DNA from: Cenococcum geophilum 1.58
Taxonomy: Eukaryota > Ascomycota > Dothideomycetes > Gloniales > Gloniaceae
Assembly: GCA_001692895.1 (NCBI GenBank)
Contig: KV748189.1
Span: forward strand, 2,674,432-2,738,431
Reading direction: 5' to 3'
Length of the DNA: 64,000 nt
Shown: positions 930-15,053 of the stretch, in pieces
How positions within the stretch are numbered: the first letter of the stretch is position 1
Layout: every line of letters begins with the position of its first letter
Position numbers and translations under genes: made by a program
The notes under the pieces: generated by a model
The model's input: only the letters and a program-made list of their open reading frames with translations
What the model was told of the DNA's origin: nothing
The model's database searches: none

Positions 930-3900
930 ATTTATAAGTTAATTAGTAAAATTAGCAGTTTAAAGCGCTAATAGATAGTAGAGTAATATAAAACTATATT
1001 TTATTAGCAGTAGTTAAGAGAATAGGACTACCTTATAGATAAAAGGAGCAACCTTACCTATTAGTTACGATTTTAGGAGATCTAATAACCTATAGAGGAG
1101 GGATCATTAATCTTAAAACAGGACCTATTCGGATAACTATTAAAGGGAGATAAATTAAGATGTCTTTTAATATCCTACCATTGGGACAGGATAAGGCAGT
1201 ATTAGGTATGCCTTAGTTATAAAAATATAATCTAAGGATTGATTGGATTACAGGTTAGGTTAATATTAGAGATACTTAATGCCGTAAGATATAATAATAA
1301 GCTAAGTTAGTATAGTACTAAATAGGAGCAACCTATAAAGAAACAGAAAAAGGACTAAGTTATATACTAAAGAGATACTATAAGTATAGTAAGAAACTAT
1401 AGTTACCAGAAAGTGAAAAGCTATTAGAATATACAGTATAGGACTATAAAATAGAGTTGGAACTAGGAATAAGTCTAAAGTTCTTTTTAATCTACAAGCT
1501 TACTAAAGAAGAAGGTAGAGCGTTAAAAGAGTTTATCTAGGAAAATCTATAAAAGGGATATATTAGACTATCGCAGTTATTAGCGGGTTATCCAGTACTG
1601 TTTGTACTAAAGAAAAATAGCAAACTAAGGCTATGTATTAACTACAGATAGTTAAATAGCATCACTAGGAAGGATAGGTATCCTTTACCCTTAATTAGCG
1701 AAATTTAAGACAGAATAGGCAATGCGTAAATCTTCACGAAGATAGATCTAAGATAGGCGTACTATTAGATTAGGATTAAGGAAGGCAATAAATAAAAGGC
1801 AGCTTTTAGGTTAAAGGAAGGACTATATAAACCATTAGTTATACAATTCGGGCTTATAAACGTACCAGCAACCTTCTAAAAGCGTATTAATAATATATTA
1901 GGAGAATACTTAGATGAATTTGTTATAGTATATCTTAACGATATTATTATCTACTTAATAATTAAGGAAGAATATAGGGAACACGTTAAATAGGTCTTAA
2001 AGAGACTATAAGAAGAATAGATACTAGTAGCAATTAAAAAATGCAAGTTCTTCACCAGGAAAACCGATTTTATTAGATTTATTATTAAACTAGGCTAACT
2101 TAGTATAGATTTAAAGAAGATCGAGGCTATAGTAAATTAGTAGGAACTAAAGAACGTTATATAGTTAAGATCGTTCCTAGGGTTTTGCAATTACTGTAGA
2201 AGGTTTATAGCGCAGTAGTTAAAGAATATTAAGCTACTTATAAGGTTAATAAAAAAAGAAGAACTATAGGCATAGGAAGAGGAGTAAAGAAAACTCTTTA
2301 AGAAAGTTAAAGAGTTGTTTACCTAGGAGCCAGTTCTTAAGATCTATTAACTAGGACTAGAGACGGTTATAAAGACGGATGCATTAGACTATATATTAGG
2401 GGTATACTTTATATAAAGGCATTAGGATAGATAGCACCTAGTAGCATACTATAGTTGAAAGATAACACTACTAGAGTTAAACTATAACATCTATAATAAG
2501 GAGTTATTAGGTATAGTTACAGCATTAAAAAAATAAAGAGCATTCTTATAAGGCATAGAGAAACTATTTATAGTTAAAACGGATTATAAGAACCTAATAG
2601 GATTCCTAATAACGAAGGAACTTAATTAAAGATAGGTTAGATAGGTAGAGATGCTTACGGAATACCATTTTAAGATTTAGTATACTAAAGGTATAGATAA
2701 TATAAGGGTAGATGCTCTAAGCCGTAAAGCTAAACTATAAAATAAGGAGAAGCTATTAGGGGCTTTATTACAAAAGGATATAGACGGATTAATTAGGTAT
2801 AATTATCTAAGAATTATAGCAACTTAAGAAGATAATAAACTAGAGAAAGTCTACAAGATACCAGAAAGCTATTAGGTATAAAGAATTCTAGAAGCATAGC
2901 TAGAAGATCTATAGACGGATATATATAAAAATCGAGAAGTGAAGTATATCTTAAGAAGCATAATAGAGTAGTTTATAGAAGACTTCTATAAGGGACTAAC
3001 TTAAGGACATAATAGAGCTATAGGCTTAGTGTTAAGACTCTAGGAGGAGTACATTATTAATAGAATCTAAAGGATAGCTAGAAAAGTTATAAAGGAATAT
3101 CTAGATTGCTAAAGAAATAAACTAACGAGGCATAAGCTATATAGAGGGCTATAACCTATTAAAATACCAGAAAGACTATAGGAGGTCATATTATAGGACT
3201 TTATTGTTAAGTTGCTAAAATTAAAAGACCCTATTACCGAATAAGATCACGACGTGATCTTAGTAATAGTAGACAAGCTTATAAAGTAGGGATACTTTAT
3301 AGTATGTATAAAAGAAATCTTAGTAGAAGATATCGCTAGAATCTATATTAAGGAAGTATTTATAAGACATGGAGCACTAAGTAAAATCATATTAGATAGA
3401 GATTTAAGATTTATAGCAGTATTCTAGGAAGTATTCTTAGCGAAGCAAGAAGTTCGAGCAGTAACTTCTACCGTATATTATCCACAGACAGACAGTTAAA
3501 CGGAAAGGTTAAATTAGACGCTAGAATAGTACCTAAGGCATTATATTAATTATGCATAGAATAATTGGGTATTACTATTACTAGTTATATAGTTTGTATA
3601 TAATATAATACCTTAAGAAGGAATAGGCATATTACCATTTAAGGCAAATTATGGGTATAAGCTAAGAACATTATTATTACTACGGTAAGTGAANAAAACG
3701 AGTAGTACAGCTAAAAAAAGAATAAAGACGTTAATAAATCTTTATGCAGACCTTATAGAATTAGTAAAAAAAGTANAAGAGAGAATAAAAAAGTACTATA
3801 ATACTAAGAGATCTAAGGGACNAGATCTTAAGGAGGNAGATAAAGTATGGCTACTATACAAAAATTTTAAGAGTTAACAACTAAGTAAGAAATTGGACCA

Positions 3901-4262
3901 CGTTAGACTAGGACCCTTTAAAATTACGTAAAGGATTTCATTAGTCACGTTTAAGTTAAACCTACCAGCTAAAATGAAAATTTACCCTATATAGCATATC
4001 GTAATGCTAGAGCTAGTATATAGGAATATTAAGCCACTGGTTTATAAAGCAGATATATATAGAGGATAAGAAGAAGATAAATGGTAAGTATTAAAGATCG
4101 TTAATTATAAAGACATTAACAACAAAATATAGTATAAGGTTAAGTGGATAGGCTATACTAAGACTACCTAGGAGCTATTAGAGAATTTAAAGAATGCTAT
4201 AGGAAAGGTATAGGAGTATTAGAAGAGATTAGGTTAGGCAGTATTAATAAAAAAGGATTGCT
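930..4262 (+). pseudogene. Gypsy A1 pol relic: protease, RT, RNase H, integrase, chromodomain
   Basis: The product would have processed the polyprotein, copied the RNA and integrated the cDNA. The protease is near 950-1270, with ALIDS around the active site (the expected following Gly reads as Arg). RT is about 1540-2200: 'LRLCINYRQLNSI' is clear, and the catalytic YxDD box reads YLND (about 1930-1950). RNase H is about 2330-2740. Integrase is about 3000-3690, with the TSTVYYPQTDSQTERLNQ region preceding the catalytic Glu position. A chromodomain-like end, 'YKVKWIGY' then 'NLKNAIGKVQEY', lies at about 4135-4215. Stops occur throughout and sit almost only at former Gln or Trp positions, as RIP predicts. 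Some Ns occur at 3694-3837. Only fragments remain open, such as a 62-codon piece at 3689-3877. Confidence 0.9.
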
Positions 4263-4289
4263 AAAGAATAAGTCACCTAAGGGGGACCT

Positions 4290-4950
4290 AAGAAAAGCAG
4301 TTGCCGAACTACTTGGATCTATTTCCTTCTCTATTAGAGGAGAGTCCGTTTTTTTATCGCCTAGTTCCTATAAACCTTATTCTATAAGTTTCTACTCCTT
4401 AAAATAAACCTTTTTATAAACCTTCTTAAGATAAAGTAGACGAGTAGACGCCGCAATTTAAGCATTTAAAGCCTTCTGTTCTGCGTTATAGGAACGTTTT
4501 AATTTAGTAAGGGCTTGCAATAGTTTACTATTTAGCTAAGCAGCAGTAGATTAAATATAAAACCCTAAAACAAATTAATTAGGGAACTAGACGACTATTA
4601 AAAGTAATAGGTCGCGTATATTTAGCATTAGAAGTAAAGCGAACGTCATAGGATAAATAAATATTCGCTTTAGTATACTCTAAGTAAGAGAACGGTTATT
4701 ATAAAGATAGGTTCGCCAATGTAATATAAACTAACCCCTCTTTCGAACAACAAGAATATGGAGACGGCATAATCTTACTAAGAGATAATATTGCAGCAAT
4801 AGTGCGAGCACAACGTTGGGTGTATAAAGAAGAAATTGCTTTAGGTATAATAAGCAATAATATTAACTAAATTAATTAGACGGATATTACACCTTTAGTA
4901 AACGACTTAAAGATATTTTAAATCTTTAAGGACAAAGATAAAGAGAAGGG
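4290..4950 (+). pseudogene. Possible third ORF of Gypsy A, downstream of the chromodomain
   Basis: Between the end of pol and the polypurine tract there are about 680 bases. Reading through RIP stops gives a protein-like frame similar to the same interval in A2 (37320-38020). Shared patterns include 'TFL-TF' and 'QAF-A' early, 'YLALE' in the middle, and 'FKDKDKE-GD' just before the tract. The function is unknown and I recognise no domain. The early part of A1 seems to need one frame change. It could instead be a 3' untranslated region that looks coding by chance, but conservation of residues rather than only bases argues for an ORF. Confidence 0.4.
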
Positions 4951-4956
4951 AGATAG

Positions 4957-5381
4957 TATTACGGACGCTTTAAGTATAATATTATAACTACTTAGAGAAG
5001 AGACAGAAGAAGCTAGTTAGTTAATTTAGGCACAGTCTAAAATAGAGCCGATAGAACTATATAACGAGGAATAGTAACTAAGGTTATATAATATGCTACG
5101 TATTAAATAAGAGAAACAAGAGGAACTTACGTACCTTATATATAAGACGTATATTATATATAAGAAGGATTTCATAGGAGTACGGTCGTGTATTTAAGGA
5201 CCCTTAGTCCCTACCTAGATAGTTCCTTCCTTATAGTAATTCTCAGAATATAATTAGAGTTAATTTATTGGGCAACCACTCCACCAGTTGTTATTACGTT
5301 ATTAACTTTTATACTTACATTTCCTACACACCTAGCCCAATAACGAGCCTACCGTAGTTCTTGCTATAAGGTTCCGTTACA
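4957..5381 (+). repeat. 3' LTR of Gypsy A1 (about 425 bp)
   Basis: The LTR begins TATTACGGACGC, from an ancestral TGTTACGGACGC, and ends GGTTCCGTTACA. It directly follows the purine tract AAAGAGAAGGGAGATAG. It is much closer to the solo LTR at 38816-39239 than to the LTRs of A2 and A3, which begin TATTACGGACCT, so two LTR subfamilies are present. GTTAG follows immediately as the right half of a target-site duplication whose left half is off the window. Confidence 0.88.
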
Positions 5382-5389
5382 GTTAGCTA

Positions 5390-8300
5390 GTTAGGTTCTA
5401 CTAAGAAAAGTTCCGGTTAGAATTCTTTAAACGCTTATATAATTATAAGGAGTTCTTTATTATAGATCTTATAGTTATACTCTTATAGTATAAGCTTAGA
5501 TAAGTAGAATATAACTAGGTAAAGGAAACCATTATTACCCATTTAGAAAAGAACGCCTGCGTTAATGTAGTCTAAGGAGTTGGTTTTAAGATAGAGTTAT
5601 CGTCCTAGTATAAAGTAAGCTAGGATAGGTGCTTTAGTAAAGGCATTTTTAAGGTTTTAGAATGCCTTCTTATAGTTAGGCGTCTAGGTAAAGCGTAGGT
5701 ACGTTTTTCTTCCTTTTATAAAAAGGCCCTTTATTCGCATTATTACTATAAGTAGTGCTACTACGCCTAAGAAGTTGTATATAAATTTCTAATAGAAGTT
5801 AGCAAAACTAAGGAAGGCTTTTATATCCTTAATGCAGTTAGGGGCTTACTATTTAGTAATTATATATACCTTTTTAGGGTCTATACAGACACCCTTAATA
5901 GTAATAATTAGTTTAAGGTATTTTACTTCTATAACTAAAAATTCGTACTTTTTTAAATTAATATAGAGTTTTACTTCCCTAAGGCGTTATAGGACCTTTT
6001 AAACGTGCTTAATATACTTAAAAGGGTTATTGCTATAAATAAGTATATCGTCCAGGTACGCCAAGTAGAAGTCGTTAAGGTAGTCCTGTAAGGCGTTATT
6101 AATATAGCTTTAGAAGGTGCCTAGGCCGTTATATACGCCAAAGGGTATAATAGTATATTCGAATTGGCTAAAGCATAATATAAATGCGGTTTTCCATTCG
6201 TCACTATCCTGTATTTAGAAATAGTTAAAGGCGGCGATAATATTAAGCTTAGTATAGATTTTAGCTTAACTAAGCCGCTTAAGGGTCTTACGTATAAGCG
6301 GTACTAAGTATCGGTTCTTAATTATAATAGCGTTAAGTCCTCTATAGTTAACGCAGAATTAAATACCTCCTCCTAGCTTCTTAACAAGAAGGATAGGGGC
6401 GGCTGCTAGTAATATACTAGGACGAATAAACCCTTTATTAAGGTGCTCGTTAATATACTTTTTTATAACTAGAAGTTTGTCTTTTAATATTAAATAGGGT
6501 CTCTTATAAGGTAGCATTTTTCCTTATTTAATATTAATAGTATAGTTGTTAGGTTAATATAGGGGGAGTATATCTACGCCCTTTTATAAGTATATATTAA
6601 TAAAGTTGTAATACCTTTTAAGGAGGAGCTTGCGGAGTTCCTTATTAGTAAGTCCCTTTTTAAGCTTTATAAACTTCTTAAAGTCTAAGGTTAAGAGTTT
6701 ATTAAGTTCTATAGGCGTGTTATCCTCTAGGAGGTTTACTAAATCTATCCTATTACTATAAAGGACATAATCCTATTTTTATTAAATTTATATAGCTATA
6801 AGTAGGAGGCCGCTGTAATAACCTAGCTCTTCCTTCGTGCTATATAATAGAAGGCTACGGCACTAACGTAGTAATAGTTAGTCGTGGGTAGTATAATTAA
6901 AGGTTCTTTAGGTTAATATCCTAGGGAGTAGGTAGAGGCGGCTAGGCTATACCCTAGGTAGGTCTCTCTATAGTAGTTAGAGTTAAAGGTTACTTCTCTT
7001 TTCTTCTAGTTAATAATAGGGTTATACTGCTTAAGCTAGTTCATTCTAAGGATAATAGGGTAATTAGTAAGTAGTATAACATAGGCCTAAAGTTCTTCTT
7101 AGTGTCCGTTTATATTTAGGTAAAGTTATACTATATAAGTAATCTTTTATATAGTATAACTACCGTTAGCGAGTTATAGGGCGCGGGCTTTAGTAAGGGG
7201 TAAGGTCGGTAGGTTATATTTACGCACAAATTAGGTATTTATAAATTTATTAGTAGCTCCGTAGTTAATTATAGAACGGTCTTTATATTATTTTTTAGCA
7301 GTTATTCCTATTATAGGTAAAACTATCTATTTCCGTCCGTCTATTCTTACTAAGTTATTTATTAAGCAGGCCGATATATAGATCCCTCCATTATTAGGGT
7401 ATTAGGGCTAAAACTAAGCATTTCCCGCTGCTTCCGCTGCTGCTTCTTTATCTTATACGGTAACGGTATATAGCGAGGTATTCGGTGTTTAAGGTATAAA
7501 GTTAGGTATTAGGCGGCGATTATTAAACCTAGCTATTAGGCAGTTTAGGTTTTCGCAATAATAGCCTTCTTAACGGTATCTATAGCAGCGCCCTAGCTTT
7601 TAAAGTAGCTTATACTCTTTATCTAAGAGTTTACGTAGGAAGGTTGGTATAGAGAGGTTAATATTAGCTCCGGTAATAGTATTAGTAATAGGCGTTAGTA
7701 ACCTAGTATATATAGGTATAGTTGGCCCAGAGGGCTTTTATATAGGGGCCTTTAGGTAAGGGTTAGTAGTAGAGATCTAATTTAGCCGTCGTTTAATCTT
7801 CTATAGGGCTGCCACTATGCTATAAATATTATTGTAATTATAACTAGCGGCAGCGTAACTAAGATAATAGGTGACCTTTTTAAGGAGGTCTTCCTGGTCT
7901 TCAGCATCGTCTTAAAAGAGAACTTTAGTATATTCCTAGAACTTAATATAGAACTTATTAAATGACTTAGTAGGACTTATCTTTAGGGCGCGTAGTTTAG
8001 CTCGACTGGTGGCCACTAAGTCGTAGTCGCGATATATTAGGTTAAAATCGTTAAAGACCTTATAGTAGGACTACTACTTCTAGGGGCTATTGGTCTCCTA
8101 TTAGGCGAAGAGTCTATTAAATAGGGTACCATTTATACGCCCGATAATGTAACCAATCTTAATATCCTCCCTAGGAAAAAGGTAGGCGCTTTAGGTTAGT
8201 TTTTCGCGGATTTATATCTTTTAGTAGCTATATTCCTTACGGTCTCCCTAAAAGACTAGGGGATTAGGGTATTGTATATTAGACCCCATAATTATAGCTT

Positions 8301-9437: not shown

Positions 9438-10260
9438 CTATATAACCTTTGTTCTTAAGCTAAAGCTTATACCCTTTACTTTAGCTTATAAAGAAGACCG
9501 TCCTAATACACTAATTTAAGAAGATAAGGCTTTACCGCATATCTCTCTCTATTATAACCTTCTTATAAACCTCTTAAATATTTAACGGCTTCTTTAGTGC
9601 CCTAATTTGCCTAATATAAATATAATAGAGCCAGCGCGGCCTTACCTTAAGAGAGCTACTACTAGGAAGGGCGCCCTTATAACTTCTGTGCCTGCTAAAA
9701 GAGTATAAAAGAAGGCTTAGAAGGATCTTAAACAGTAGCAAATTTAGCGGTAGATTAAGAGGATCCCTTAGTATATTAAAGAGATAATAAGGCTTAAGGG
9801 AGGCAATAAGTATCGTAAGGGCTTATTAAATATACCTCGGCGCGCAAGGCCTCTAAAATACTATATTCCGCAGAATAATTAGGAGGATATATTAGTGAAG
9901 ATAAGGAGAATCTATAGCTAAAGGTAAAGGTAAAGGCTAAGCCAAGAAAGCAAGCTCTAAAGAAGGCAGTAAAAAGCGCTGCTAGAGCTGCTTTAGCTAC
10001 TGTTTTCGCTATATAAGAAGCTCAAGAAACGCCTTAAGATCTACCTTAAGAACTACCTTAAGATCTACCTCAAGATCCACCTCAAGCGCCACGACGAAAT
10101 TTACGACGTCGCCTTCCAAATGAGGTCCTCAATAAGACGTTTATTGAGCCCGAGGAGCCATAGTAGCAGCAGGCTGAGTCATTAAAGAGGCTATAGCGAC
10201 GGGGTGGTGGGCGGAAGCAGTAACTGTATATATTATATATATCAACACCTTAATAGGTAT
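9438..10260 (+). pseudogene. Unassigned degenerate coding-like stretch
   Basis: I do not recognise this region. From about 9610 to 10230 the + strand reads as a basic, Gln/Arg/Lys-rich protein tail if TAG and TAA are read as Gln. It includes a run of 12-base repeats (about 10028-10088, units like CCTTAAGATCTA) encoding a repeated Pro-Gln-Asp/Glu-Leu motif, and ends near a GGGRKQ-stop at about 10230. Such tails occur at the C-terminus of fungal DNA transposases, but nothing here fixes a family. The density of former Gln codons suggests a RIP-mutated repeat. Confidence 0.35.
10028..10088 (+). repeat. 12-bp tandem repeat, about five units
   Basis: Units are variants of CCTTAAGATCTA, drifting to CCTCAAGATCCA at the right end. 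The period is a multiple of three and keeps one frame (Pro, Gln, Asp/Glu, Leu/Pro), suggesting a repeat inside a former coding sequence. The right units keep CAA and CCA while the left ones have TAA and CTA, a visible gradient of RIP. Confidence 0.7.
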
Positions 10261-10565
10261 TAAATATGACGTTATCTATTTACACTTCTCGTTATAGAGA
10301 GCCAAAATCTAGCTTCTACTCCAGCCTCCTTCCTAATTTGGAACGCCAAGAGCTGGTAATGTGGCGTTTTGGTGGCGTTTTGGTGGCGCAGGGGGGGTCC
10401 GTCACTTTTGACCGCTGCCTCTGTATGCCGCACCGCATTGTTAAATACGGCAGTATGCTGTACCTTAGTTGATACCATACGCTACACGTTATAGTGCGTG
10501 GAATGCGTATTTGGCCGCCAAATGCTGCCAAATGCTGCAAAAATGCTAGTAAATTTTTTCCTGAC
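10261..10565. other. Weakly mutated patch with short direct repeats
   Basis: Unlike its surroundings, this patch keeps many CA and TG dinucleotides. It contains short direct repeats: TGGCGTTT/TTGGTGGCG units at about 10363-10390 and CCAAATGCTG units at about 10515-10540. Its right edge reads AAATTTTTTCCTGACGTAGC, which reversed resembles the TCAGGAAA-poly-T terminus of the element at 12949-14933. It may be a remnant of a related small DNA transposon, but a convincing left end was not found. Overlapping small ORFs on both strands (10266-10540) have no protein character. Confidence 0.4.
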
Positions 10566-11230
10566 GTAGCGTTATTTCTATTTAATATATGCCTATCCTA
10601 TAATATATATAGTAGATCTCTACTTATACTAATAGCCCCCTAGCCTCTATTACTATAGTAGTGCTTTACTAGCGTAGCGTTAAGTCTTCGCTTAGTGTTA
10701 TAATAGCTCCTATATTTTCTATTCTCTGCCTACTACTTATAAATAAAGGGCTTCTTAGCTTATTAGCTTTTACCATTAATACTAGGTCGTTATTTAGCCT
10801 CCTTTTTTTATAAAATAGATAAGCTAGTATTAATCTAGTATAAATTTAACGCCGTATTGTTTTGTTTATATAATATACCGGTTATATACCTAGTTTAGGC
10901 TAGTACGGTTTTCTACTACTATAACTTCTTATATAAGCGATATTTCCGCCCTTTAAAAAAATAAAAAAATTCTAAAAAATAATTAACGCTATAGATAGCA
11001 GTAATATTAATCCGGTAATACTGCTAATTTTCCCTATATACTATTGTATATATATCTAATAGCTCTAGAAGCGGTAAAAAAGTAGGATAGATAGGGGGGT
11101 TAAAATTTAGAAAATTAGATTTCGCGGTTAAGCTATTTAAAAGTTAGGAAACTAAGATAAATGCTATATTCTCCGCTTACCTCTAAGCTAATATATAATT
11201 TCCTAATTAGGAAAAGTCTTTTATAAGTAG
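10566..11230. other. AT-rich RIP-mutated spacer, no recognisable gene
   Basis: TA-rich sequence with stops in all frames. The - strand of about 10570-10820 has a coding-like run rich in Lys and Arg that I cannot assign. The boundary with the LINE on the right is soft, because that LINE's reverse transcriptase becomes recognisable only near 11340. Confidence 0.5.
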
Positions 11231-12945: not shown

Positions 12946-13045
12946 AAACAACATCAGGAAATTTTTTTTCGGGCTCGTTGTTGCAGTTTGCGGCAATTTG
13001 CGGCAAACTGTACGGTCGCGGCAGTCGTATATAGTCTTATGCGGT

Positions 13046-13160
13046 TTGCGTATTTTGTGGCAAACTACATAGAGCCTGCGTATTTTGCAGCAACTTGCAG
13101 CAAACTGCATAGAGCCTACGTATTTTATAGCAACTCGCAGCAAACGCGCAGAGCCTGTGT
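13046..13160. repeat. Degenerate tandem repeat of about 40 bp
   Basis: About three imperfect units carry CGTATTTT, then GCAGCAAACTGCATAGAGCC, differing by substitutions and small deletions. The AGAGCC word also recurs in the large 12-bp minisatellite of the same element, hinting at a common origin. The overlapping ORFs on both strands here are products of the repeat, not genes. Confidence 0.7.
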
Positions 13161-13240
13161 ATTTTACACGTTTTGTATATTTTATATATTTTATATATTT
13201 TACACATTTTGCACATTTTATACATTTTATATTTTTGCAT
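13160..13240. repeat. Degenerate 10-bp AT-rich repeat
   Basis: A run of imperfect TATATTTTAT-like units with CACATTTTGC variants. It is open in several frames and gives low-complexity Tyr/Ile/Phe or Lys/Tyr peptides, best read as non-coding. Confidence 0.7.
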
Positions 13241-13390
13241 ATTTTTATTCCTATATAACTATATAAAATATAGAGCTATTTTATTAAGTATTAAGATAAG
13301 GGGGGATACCCTTTACAAAGGCTCCAAATCATTAATTGGCGGTATTCCTAACGATCTGCTGGCTGTGTACCGATTTCCTAACTAGGCTAG

Positions 13391-13392
13391 TG

Positions 13393-13427
<35 letters not shown>

Positions 13428-13660
13428 ACCTGTCTGTCTGTCTGTCTGTCTGTACCTGCCTATGCCTACCTGCCTATGCCTACTGGTCTATGCCTACTAT
13501 CTGTGCTACCTGTCCTGTGCCTACTGTCTGTGCCTACCTGTCTGTACCCTACCTATCTGTGCTACCTGTCTATGCCTACCTGTCCTATACCTACCGTTCT
13601 GTGCCTACGTCCTGTGCCTCCTATCTGTGCTACTGTCTATGCCCTACCTGTCTGTAATTT
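13391..13660. repeat. (TGCC)n and (TGTC)n microsatellite passing into a degenerate repeat
   Basis: About nine TGCC units (13391-13428) are followed by about five TGTC units (13430-13452), then imperfect CTGTGCCTACC words to about 13660. The start is nearly pure, which suggests recent expansion. The peptides from the overlapping ORFs at 13336-13859 are low-complexity and not genes. Confidence 0.85.
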
Positions 13661-13772
13661 GGGGGAAAGGTCGGCCCGATCGAAGGCTCCGCCTAATTTG
13701 ATTGATCGATTAATCGTATTAATTCGAATCGTTCTCTCTACGGCCGTTCGCTGGGCTGTATATTCGAACGGT

Positions 13773-13822
13773 GGGTCGTCTGGCTCTGGCGACGGTCGAC
13801 GGTCGTCTGGTTCTGGCGACCG
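13773..13822. repeat. Two copies of a 28-bp GC-rich unit
   Basis: GGTCGTCTGG, then CTCTGGCGAC or TTCTGGCGAC, occurs at 13773 and again at 13801. It is the most GC-rich part of this element and unlike the surrounding window. Confidence 0.75.
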
Positions 13823-13984
13823 GTCCTCAGCTGGCTGCCCCGTTCTGGTGCCTCCCTAGGTAGGGGAGGATGTAAGGAAGGAGGGTAAGAAAATAAGGTG
13901 GCTACCTAGGTATATAGATAAGGGTTCACACTTGGCAGAGGCACGTGTAGAGGCTATCGGGAATATAGCGGGGACCCGATGCAG

Positions 13985-14735
13985 AGCTTCGTGTAGAGCC
14001 TCCGTATGTCGCGCAAAGCCTCGTGCAGAGCCTCTGTGTACGTAGAGCTTCGTGTAGAGCCTTGTGTAGAGCTTCGTGCAGAGCTTCGTGTAGAGCCTCA
14101 TGCAGAGCCTTGTGCAAAGCTTCGTGTAGAGCTTCGTGTAGAGCCTCGCGCCAAAGCTTCGTGCAGAGCTTTGTGTAGAGCTTCGTGTAGAGCTTCGTGT
14201 AGGAGCTTTATGCAAAGCTTCGTGCAGAGCTTCGTGTAGAGCTTCGTGCAGAGCCTCGTGTAGAAGCTTCGTGTGAGGCTTTATGCAGAGCTTCGTGTAG
14301 AGCTTCGGTATAGAGCTTCGTGTAGAGCTTCGTGTAGAGCCCTCGTGTAGAGCTTCGTGCAAAGCTTCGGTGTAGAGCTTCGTGCAAAGCTTCGTGTAGA
14401 GCTTCGTGCAGAGCCTCGTGTAGAGCTTCGTGCCAAAGCTTCGTGTAGAGCTTCGTGCAGGAGCCTCGTGTAGAGCTTTCGTGCAGAGCCTCGTACAGAG
14501 CCTCTATACGCAGAGCTTCGTAATAGAGCTTCGTGCCAGAGGCTTCGTGCAGAGCTTCGTGTAGAGCTTTGTGCAGAGCCTCGTGCAGAGCTTCGTGCAG
14601 AGGCTTCGTGCAGAGCTTTCGTGTAGAGCTTTGTGCAGAGCCTCGTGCAGAGCTTCCGTGCAGAGCTTCGTGTAGAGCTTTGTGCAGAGCTTCGTGCAGA
14701 GCTTTGTGTAGAGCTTCGTGTAGAGCTTTATAGTA
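13985..14735. repeat. Large 12-bp minisatellite (about 750 bp)
   Basis: Units are variants of AGAGCTTCGTGT and AGAGCCTCGTGC, repeated for about 750 bases with occasional 1-base slips (for example 14150, 14200, 14270 and 14460). Because 12 is a multiple of 3, all frames stay open on both strands: + gives Arg-Ala-Ser-Cys style repeats and - gives Ala-Leu-His-Glu repeats, which produces the ORFs at 13856-14362 and 14533-14929. Frame slips between copies argue against selection for a protein. Confidence 0.92.
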
Positions 14736-15053
14736 TTTTTGTTGCGTTTTTATTGCAGCCGAAAATTAGGGTCTACTTAAGTCGCAATTTGCGGCGATTT
14801 ATATGGGTAGCCTATGTATTTGTAGCAAATCGCCGCAAGTTGCCGNAAATCGCTAAAATNGCGACTTACGCAGGTTTTGNAGACCCCGATTTTCGCTTGC
14901 GACAACGTGCCCAAAAAAAAAATTCCTGATGAATAGGGAAAGATAAAGAAGGTAGATGCTTTAGGGACTATACCACGGTATAAAACCCTATGTATCTATT
15001 ACTAGAATGCAGACTATATTAGGAAGATAGAAAGGAAATGTAAAGATAAATAG

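Follow-up and report, generated by a model that had tools for sequence, protein, structure and literature searches.

How dispersed minisatellites originate and multiply has long been debated. To judge from the title of a 2011 study by Coates et al., lepidopteran miniature inverted-repeat transposable elements (MITEs) reportedly carry (GTCY)n microsatellites as a hitchhiking tetranucleotide cargo. In Acropora corals, the CMITE families, which are associated with piggyBac, have an internal region that is more conserved between the families than their inverted ends are, according to the accessible part of their description (PMC2872659). Here we describe an element found in a stretch of 64,000 nucleotides from Cenococcum geophilum 1.58 (contig KV748189.1, positions 2,674,432 to 2,738,431, G000:C14:2674432-2738431 in our numbering; the whole stretch is called the window). 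The element spans window positions 12952-14931 (1,980 bp), has inverted-repeat ends, and is flanked by a 2-bp target duplication (AA). We consider it probable that it is a non-autonomous DNA transposon of the cut-and-paste type with a satellite cassette, that the same cassette resides in two further families with other ends, and that ends and cassette have recombined. The feature is real and mobile, and its mechanism class, that of non-autonomous elements with terminal inverted repeats and of satellite-bearing MITE-like elements, is ordinary; its cargo and the sharing of this cargo are unusual.

The terminal repeats of the element, CATCAGGAAATTTTTTTTCGGGCTCGTTGTTGCA at 12952-12985 (forward strand) and its counterpart at 14898-14931 (reverse strand), are 34 nt long and 88% complementary in an inverted-repeat comparison, in agreement with the matching 34-base ends noticed in the initial annotation. 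The AA copies lie at 12950-12951 and 14932-14933, and the start and end given there (12949 and 14933) differ by no more than 1 bp from the outer limits of these duplications. A search with the joined flanks gave 40 listed matches (40 of 983 candidates were scored), two of which were the window's own halves; the other 38 aligned unbroken across the junction. In each of the six empty sites that were read base by base AA occurred once, AACAA being followed directly by TAGGG in five of them and by TATGG in one. As all 38 alignments end 119-120 bases to the right of the insertion, the element seems to lie near the 3' end of the host repeat. Thus, the claim that a host frame of a long interspersed nuclear element (LINE) continues on both sides holds as to continuity; the identity of the host as a LINE is likely, and a weak RNase H match upstream of the insertion fits it. 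This match had an E-value of 0.016 in the window copy, below the Pfam cut-off and with stops read as Q/W, and one of 2.9e-5 in the sister copy L067 (24.7 bits, where the cut-off is 25.8); no RNase H match was obtained from L068, another sister copy. The flanks are AT-rich and have a dinucleotide bias like that of repeat-induced point mutation, as suits a fungal genome, with a (CpA+TpG)/(ApC+GpT) ratio of 0.53 and 0.36 in two 5-kb flanks and of 1.06 inside the element. Over 27 elements, the median of this ratio was 0.91 inside vs 0.45 in their own 400-bp flanks, and the inside value was higher in 26 of the 27.

The genome search that had been proposed for these ends, made in 177 Mb (177,193,698 bases in 162 contigs), gave 281 and 66 exact family-1 ends, together 347, against 1 and 3 for the reversed-string controls. 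Many of them form +/- pairs, 1.5-3.2 kb apart. All of the first 32 end loci (L001-L032) continued inward into family sequence when self-matches were excluded: the match was at least 331 bases long at 15 independent end loci and at least 100 bases long at 17 loci of fetched copies, the poorest (L010, 100 bases) adjoining a nested insertion. Target duplications were counted in 31 intervals, that is, the 31 fetched ones minus L060, which has two ends of one orientation, plus the window copy. Identical 2-mers flanked 24 of these 31, or 24 of 29 without L044 and L061, which are right-end fragments whose inner flank is array; shuffled flanks gave a mean of 7.3 and a maximum of 13 of 31 (2000 shuffles), and 3-mers at the flanks agreed in 1 of 30. 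Thirteen of the 24 matching duplications are TA, and the other 11 are AC and AA (two each), CA, GG, GA, TC, GT, CG and TT. The lack of other copies, or ends that bound different units elsewhere, had been named as the outcome that would speak against one mobile unit with a satellite cargo; we found many bounded copies. Ends that bound the same unit at many loci, a fixed 2-bp duplication, empty sites (at one insertion site), and the absence of any transposase domain from the three copies that were scanned place the element among non-autonomous DNA transposons with terminal inverted repeats.

The modules of the window copy are all given on the forward strand. The left end module U1 (12952-13045), which was matched from its position 1, wholly or in part, in 28 of 28 long elements (the window copy included), is followed by two arrays called by the tandem-repeat scan, 2.8 copies of a 40-bp unit (13060-13168) and an AT-rich repeat with a period of 9 (13156-13245), and by a conserved TATA-like core, ATATAACTATATAAAATATAGAGCTA (13253-13278), which each of the 28 long elements searched contains with 3 edits or fewer. 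Next comes a CCTG/TCTG (TGCC/TGTC) tract (13390-13656), called by the same scan and located at the same place in relatives, then the single-copy spacer U3 (13657-13773), which occurs in part of family 1 and, by eye, has similar sequence in family-2 elements, and a short GC-rich array (13774-13825) with a unit of 20 bp in relatives, 849 bp long in L064. Spacer U4 (13826-13954), which contains the palindrome-like CCTCCCTAGGTAGGGGAGG, is common to all three end families, as seen in the alignment and the tree. It leads to a near-invariant 26-mer, TATCGGGAATATAGCGGGGACCCGAT (13955-13980), with 373 exact copies in the genome vs 2 for the reversed string, and to a 12-bp array, AGAGCTTCGTGY (13981-14728), which the scan called at 14044-14728 and which by eye starts from about 13981, giving about 750 bp; exact 27-mers of this unit number 740 in the genome vs 12 for the control. 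The right end module (14735-14931) reads as a former palindromic MITE of about 265 bp, with an outer arm of 129 bp at 88% and only 25 bp at 84% remaining of the inner arm. The initial annotation had thus listed the 40-bp unit, the TGCC/TGTC tracts and the extent of the 12-bp array correctly; it gave the AT repeat a period of 10, and its 28-bp GC-rich pair appeared by eye to be about two copies of the unit that is 20 bp in relatives.

The comparison of array lengths between copies, also proposed there, showed very different lengths in an unchanged module order. In the 28 long elements, the window copy included, the modules that were found follow this order: the left end, the AT-rich part with the TATA-like core, the CCTG/TCTG tract, the 20-bp array, spacer U4 with the 26-mer, the 12-bp array, and the right end. 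Some family-1 elements lack U3 or U4 or have them incomplete or interrupted (in L033, about 760 bp interrupt U4), and no 26-mer was found in L040, which has runs of N, or in L041. The distance from the 26-mer to the right end varies between 437 and 1717 bp (22 elements), that from the TATA-like core to the CCTAGG motif between 493 and 1498 bp (21 elements), and the total length between 1,563 and 3,463 bp, with a median of 2,166 (26 elements); L051 and L052, which contain nested insertions, were left out of the length statistics. Among the matches listed, the right end corresponds over its whole length to the 265-bp palindrome of L044 in L042, L046 (98%), L048, L052 and L053. The L044 palindrome folds at -113.7 kcal/mol (hairpin z -21.8), and its inner end is still CATCAGG, adjoining the 12-bp array, in L046, L060, L044 and L061.

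The 373 exact 26-mers exceed the approximately 174 pairs that could be made from 347 exact family-1 ends. On contig C1, 5 of 14 exact 26-mers lie within 2 kb of a family-1 end; eight of the other nine were read and assigned to family 2 or 3, and the ninth lies, by its coordinates, inside a family-2 pair. The cassette, composed of the CCTG/TCTG tract, the 20-bp array, the spacer with the near-invariant 26-mer and the 12-bp array, is nearly the same in families 1, 2 and 3, and its presence in families with other ends goes beyond the initial annotation. Ends of type CATCGGSAAAATAT characterize the family-2 loci L074, L075, L077, L078 and L080, and ends of type CGTCAGGAAAAAATTTAC the family-3 loci L073, L076 and L079. 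For L074, L077 and L073, only a right end was covered by the sequence retrieved or could be recognised; L076 and L080 have altered ends, and L080 was assigned by the sequence adjoining its end. Genome-wide, there are 558 exact family-2 ends (control 1) and 152 exact family-3 ends (control 0). The ends of the three families are alike only in a short terminal motif, C(A/G)TC(A/G)G(G/C)AA, to which the 2-bp duplication is added: in families 2 and 3, the flanking 2-mers were identical in 8 of 9 elements (L075, L076, L078, L079, L081, L082, L084 and L085; not in L083), being TA in five and TT, CT and AT in one each, with altered ends allowed. Family 3, too, has a palindromic right end, with 47 nt at 89% in L079 and, in L073, also 24 nt at 96% that pair the inner border with the outer end, and no inverted repeat of at least 20 nt was found in the two family-2 stretches tested. 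L081, L082, L083 and L085, chosen because they have family-2 ends with no listed exact 26-mer between them, all turned out to carry the cassette. In L082, L083 and L085, the 26-mer was present, by eye, with one or more changes; in L081, with 3.8 kb between its ends, the cassette is interrupted by an insertion at the 26-mer.

By eye, the right side of family 2 in L074 (about 1640-2150) holds a further array of TTAAGTTAGTTAAATT-type units, and L079 (family 3, about 2120-2440) holds a set of GCATTTAGC-type palindromes, so that every vehicle seems to contribute additional repeats. The window itself contains a family-3 left end on the reverse strand (10423-10566, with an exact CGTCAGGAAAAAATTTAC at 10549-10566), about 145 bp of which are 93% identical to L079 and which is cut off by another sequence, AGAGGCAGCGGTCAAAAGTGACGG..., which by its resemblance may be a Tc1-like end. 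A Tc1-like remnant suspected from resemblance at 9500-9860 had no Pfam match and was set aside.

The 26-mer falls within the best-conserved part of the block. In 28 cassettes (L033 dropped), its mean pairwise identity was 96.4% vs 87.2% in the upstream spacer and 62.9% downstream, and 14 of its 26 columns were invariant vs 45 of 129 in the upstream spacer; 20 of the 28 rows had the exact 26-mer, and the best-scoring 26-column windows overlapped it. The TATA-like blocks are kept within family 1, and the nine family-2 and family-3 loci that were compared have another version of such a block in common, TATTATTTTAGATAATTTAATRTA, located before the CCTG tract. Such conservation raises the possibility, which we regard as doubtful, that the 26-mer, U4 and the TATA-like cores would constitute the promoter or processing unit of a non-coding RNA that matters to the element or its host, the arrays being transcribed or part of an enhancer. 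However, a search of the window with Rfam gave no family at the gathering score, the two matches obtained being at chance level (E 0.52 and 0.6), no transfer RNA was found in the element, and 8 of the 28 rows lacked the exact 26-mer. Moreover, selection is one reading of the uniformity of the 26-mer, and gene conversion may be another, as it could likewise keep this sequence uniform.

For the relationship between cassettes and ends, we built a tree of the U4 block from 34 cassettes (25 of family 1, 6 of family 2 and 3 of family 3; 148 columns kept), without L033, L040, L041, L082 and L083, which have no clean block. One branch, with support of 98/97, separates 12 family-1 and the 3 family-3 cassettes from 13 family-1 and the 6 family-2 cassettes. 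The family-1 label requires four changes on this tree, and at least three are forced by the starred branches. L053 (family 1) and L079 (family 3) are identical over the U4 block. When these two elements were aligned, identity was 44-51% over the 600 leftmost columns, rose to 71-100% within the cassette and fell to 33-41% at the right end, except in the last 19 columns (16/19), which are the shared terminal motif; the similarity has sharp borders, beginning at the CCTG tract and ending at the edge of the 12-bp array. As the tree cuts across the families and L053 and L079 share an identical block, either cassettes have changed their ends or ends have changed their cassettes, and the position of the borders, at the CCTG tract and the 12-bp array, led us to propose crossing-over or conversion within the arrays. 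Exchange by recombination in shared arrays is the most likely course, the recombination step itself being inferred, and it suggests that repeats have been passed between transposons.

Two other histories of the cassette were weighed against this exchange. The three families could have inherited it from a common ancestor, their ends diverging with no exchange at all. The common terminal motif and the 2-bp duplication would agree with that, as would the single group formed by family 2 in the tree, the support of which is weak (49/74). However, family-1 cassettes lie on both sides of the 98/97 branch with at least three forced label changes, and L053 and L079 do not differ in the block, whereas their ends show 33-51% identity save for the last 19 columns, so that we hold this history to be unlikely. 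Alternatively, the cassette could itself be mobile and enter different MITEs by its own mechanism. It is indeed found in three contexts, and L084, a 515-bp family-2 element with both ends and its own TA duplication, has no cassette. Against that, no common terminal motif or duplication was seen at the cassette borders, where no dedicated search was run, and the borders between L079 and L053 lie in or at tandem arrays, as recombination would give. A self-inserting cassette appears about as improbable as shared descent without exchange.

Several observations weigh against our preferred explanation, a non-autonomous transposon that shares a recombining cassette with other families. The tree stands on a block of 148 columns, with weak support for 21 of 29 inner branches and a bootstrap that had not converged. 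The flanking 2-mers of family 1 differ in 7 of the 31 intervals. A reverse-strand match to NNH2 in the window (E 5.5e-7) is above the Pfam cut-off, and matches below it occur in another window frame, in L055 (1.9e-4) and in L063 (0.0014); since the matching stretches are the 12-bp array read in different frames, we took them as an effect of composition. An autonomous partner with the same ends, the search for which had also been suggested, was not found among the end and domain matches listed, which cover part of the genome (up to 100 places per end search, with domain matches compared by eye with the listed ends). PF02992 gave no match in the genome nor in the controls and is hence uninformative. 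The 66 matches to PF13359 all contain stops, and by eye none lies between listed paired ends. PF03184 gave 150 listed matches of 713 candidates; the two places near ends that were fetched are both nested elements. Three DDE_1 genes inside bounded elements look like parts of nested pogo-like elements, and an unpaired family-1 end on C14 has a further DDE_1 match 12 kb away on its inner side.

No transposase domain was found in six frames of three elements (the window copy, L055 and L063), and the longer pairs of ends did not supply an autonomous element. L051 (a 6.0-kb pair) holds a nested element at about 2581-6265 that has many stops and CAGTGTAAGAG-type ends, which by their motif we take to be hAT-like; it contains a 23-bp tandem array (5576-6051). 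L052 (7.6 kb) holds a nested copy of family 1. A 16.6-kb pair (L064 and L065) holds two DDE_1 genes that were judged nested and a reversed family-1 copy, together with a weak aspartyl protease match, the domain scan of this pair covering three of its stretches. In L088 (numbered on the reverse complement of C2:573900-576800), a pogo-like element at 221-2046 with its own 63-bp inverted ends (92%) is nested in a family-2 element and accounts for the DDE_1 gene near a family-2 end; it looks less degraded than most of the listed DDE_1 matches. No open frame of 100 residues was found in L066, beside end locus L029. A protein-coding reading of the element was also rejected: in 28 elements, L051 and L052 among them, stop-to-stop frames are up to 116-505 residues long, depending on the element, but open frames are what the 12-bp and 4-bp units produce by themselves. 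Open frames cross the 26-mer in three frames in L052 (GPRYI, VPAIFP, GSPLY) and in two in the window copy, so no constant protein is read from it.

That the element could seed arrays in the genome, as the initial annotation supposed, is borne out weakly, by one free-standing array. Seven of the 17 loci of the 12-bp array on contig C1 lie more than about 3.5 kb from any exact end or 26-mer listed, and two of the seven were read. L086 contains a cassette in which the 26-mer is altered and the right side is a different one. L087 contains a stand-alone 12-bp array of about 430 bp (about 1055-1490). The sequence read to either side of it, 1.0 kb and 0.4 kb, holds no spacer and no ends, so one array or more exists outside an element. 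Two unit variants of the L087 array also occur in family-1 elements (27 and 3 times), and the transfer may have run from array to element or from element to array. The L087 array adjoins GC-richer sequence that looks gene-like by eye.

In the mechanism that we propose, the CATCAGG... ends would be recognised in trans by a transposase, both the enzyme and its chemistry being conjectural, and insertion duplicates 2 bp of the target, often TA and also other dinucleotides. The cassette travels with the element while its arrays grow and shrink, presumably by slippage or unequal exchange, and crossing-over inside the arrays would swap ends and cassette. A neighbouring MITE may have been captured as the right end in families 1 and 3; in some copies of both, the right-end palindrome abuts the 12-bp array and its inner end resembles the outer one. 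More tentatively, the cassette might be a selfish non-coding passenger that changes vehicles, with the arrays serving as homology handles onto the ends of whichever MITE family is mobilised and with the 26-mer and TATA-like cores kept for recruiting transcription, recombination or transposition. This single genome offers hundreds of ends, three transposon families in which arrays of the same kinds occupy the same places, and one or more arrays that stand free, so that the growth, loss and exchange of arrays can be measured copy by copy. If ends are indeed exchanged, arrays inside transposons are joints at which families recombine, beyond being cargo. With at least 373 exact 26-mers, the copy number might also lead repeat annotation astray, so that these families are lumped or split.

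The element was also compared with better-known classes. Strict MITEs are short, usually below about 800 bp, and the elements described here measure 1,563-3,463 bp, the short copies L043 (168 bp) and L084 having no cassette. Tc1/mariner elements have a strict TA target duplication; here, 11 of the 24 matching duplications are not TA, and the AA of the window copy is shown by empty sites. CMC/CACTA elements have ends beginning with CACTA or similar and a Transposase_21 gene; the present ends begin with CATCAGG, and PF02992, silent in genome and controls alike, speaks neither for nor against this class. PIF/Harbinger elements produce a 3-bp duplication, and their full-length partners have a DDE_Tnp_4 gene; in the present elements 2 bp are duplicated, the flanking 3-mers are identical in 1 of 30, and inspection by eye placed none of the PF13359 matches between the paired ends listed. 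In foldback elements, long inverted repeats carry tandem repeats at both ends, whereas the two ends of this element share 34 nt only and its palindrome is confined to the right end. A helentron-like rolling-circle element with a satellite core is hardly credible: its lay-out of conserved blocks around tandem arrays with a hairpin near one end is similar, but Helentrons and DINE-1 insert with no target duplication and have rolling-circle ends, and the matching inverted ends at both termini, the 2-bp duplications and the clean empty sites led us to reject it.

In the literature searched, which covers few subscription papers, no paper containing the string CATCAGGAAATTTTTT and no description of a multi-array cassette common to families with different ends were found. 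The accessible parts of four reports nevertheless describe related arrangements. BrickBuilt of Porphyromonas gingivalis likewise has a minisatellite inside a MITE, and has promoter activity; it differs in being bacterial and in having one 23-bp repeat, with 19 copies in one strain (PMC4596501). The non-autonomous, foldback-like Tetris/DAIBAM of Drosophila virilis similarly has terminal parts in common with a MITE, and its tandem repeats also occur in longer arrays; those repeats, of about 220 bp, are inside the inverted repeats, whereas here several kinds of array lie inside the element, asymmetrically (PMC4079207). The Xenopus miDNA4/Xstir MITEs, as presented in a review, resemble our element in having a captured tandem repeat of variable copy number and may release satellite arrays; the available part of that review contains no multi-array cassette common to end families (PMC12628747). 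Like the CMITE families, the three families described here share an internal region and a short terminal motif. Unlike them, as far as the accessible text goes, where the core is not described as minisatellite arrays, these families have a 2-bp duplication, an array-laden core, and a cassette tree that conflicts with the ends (PMC2872659).

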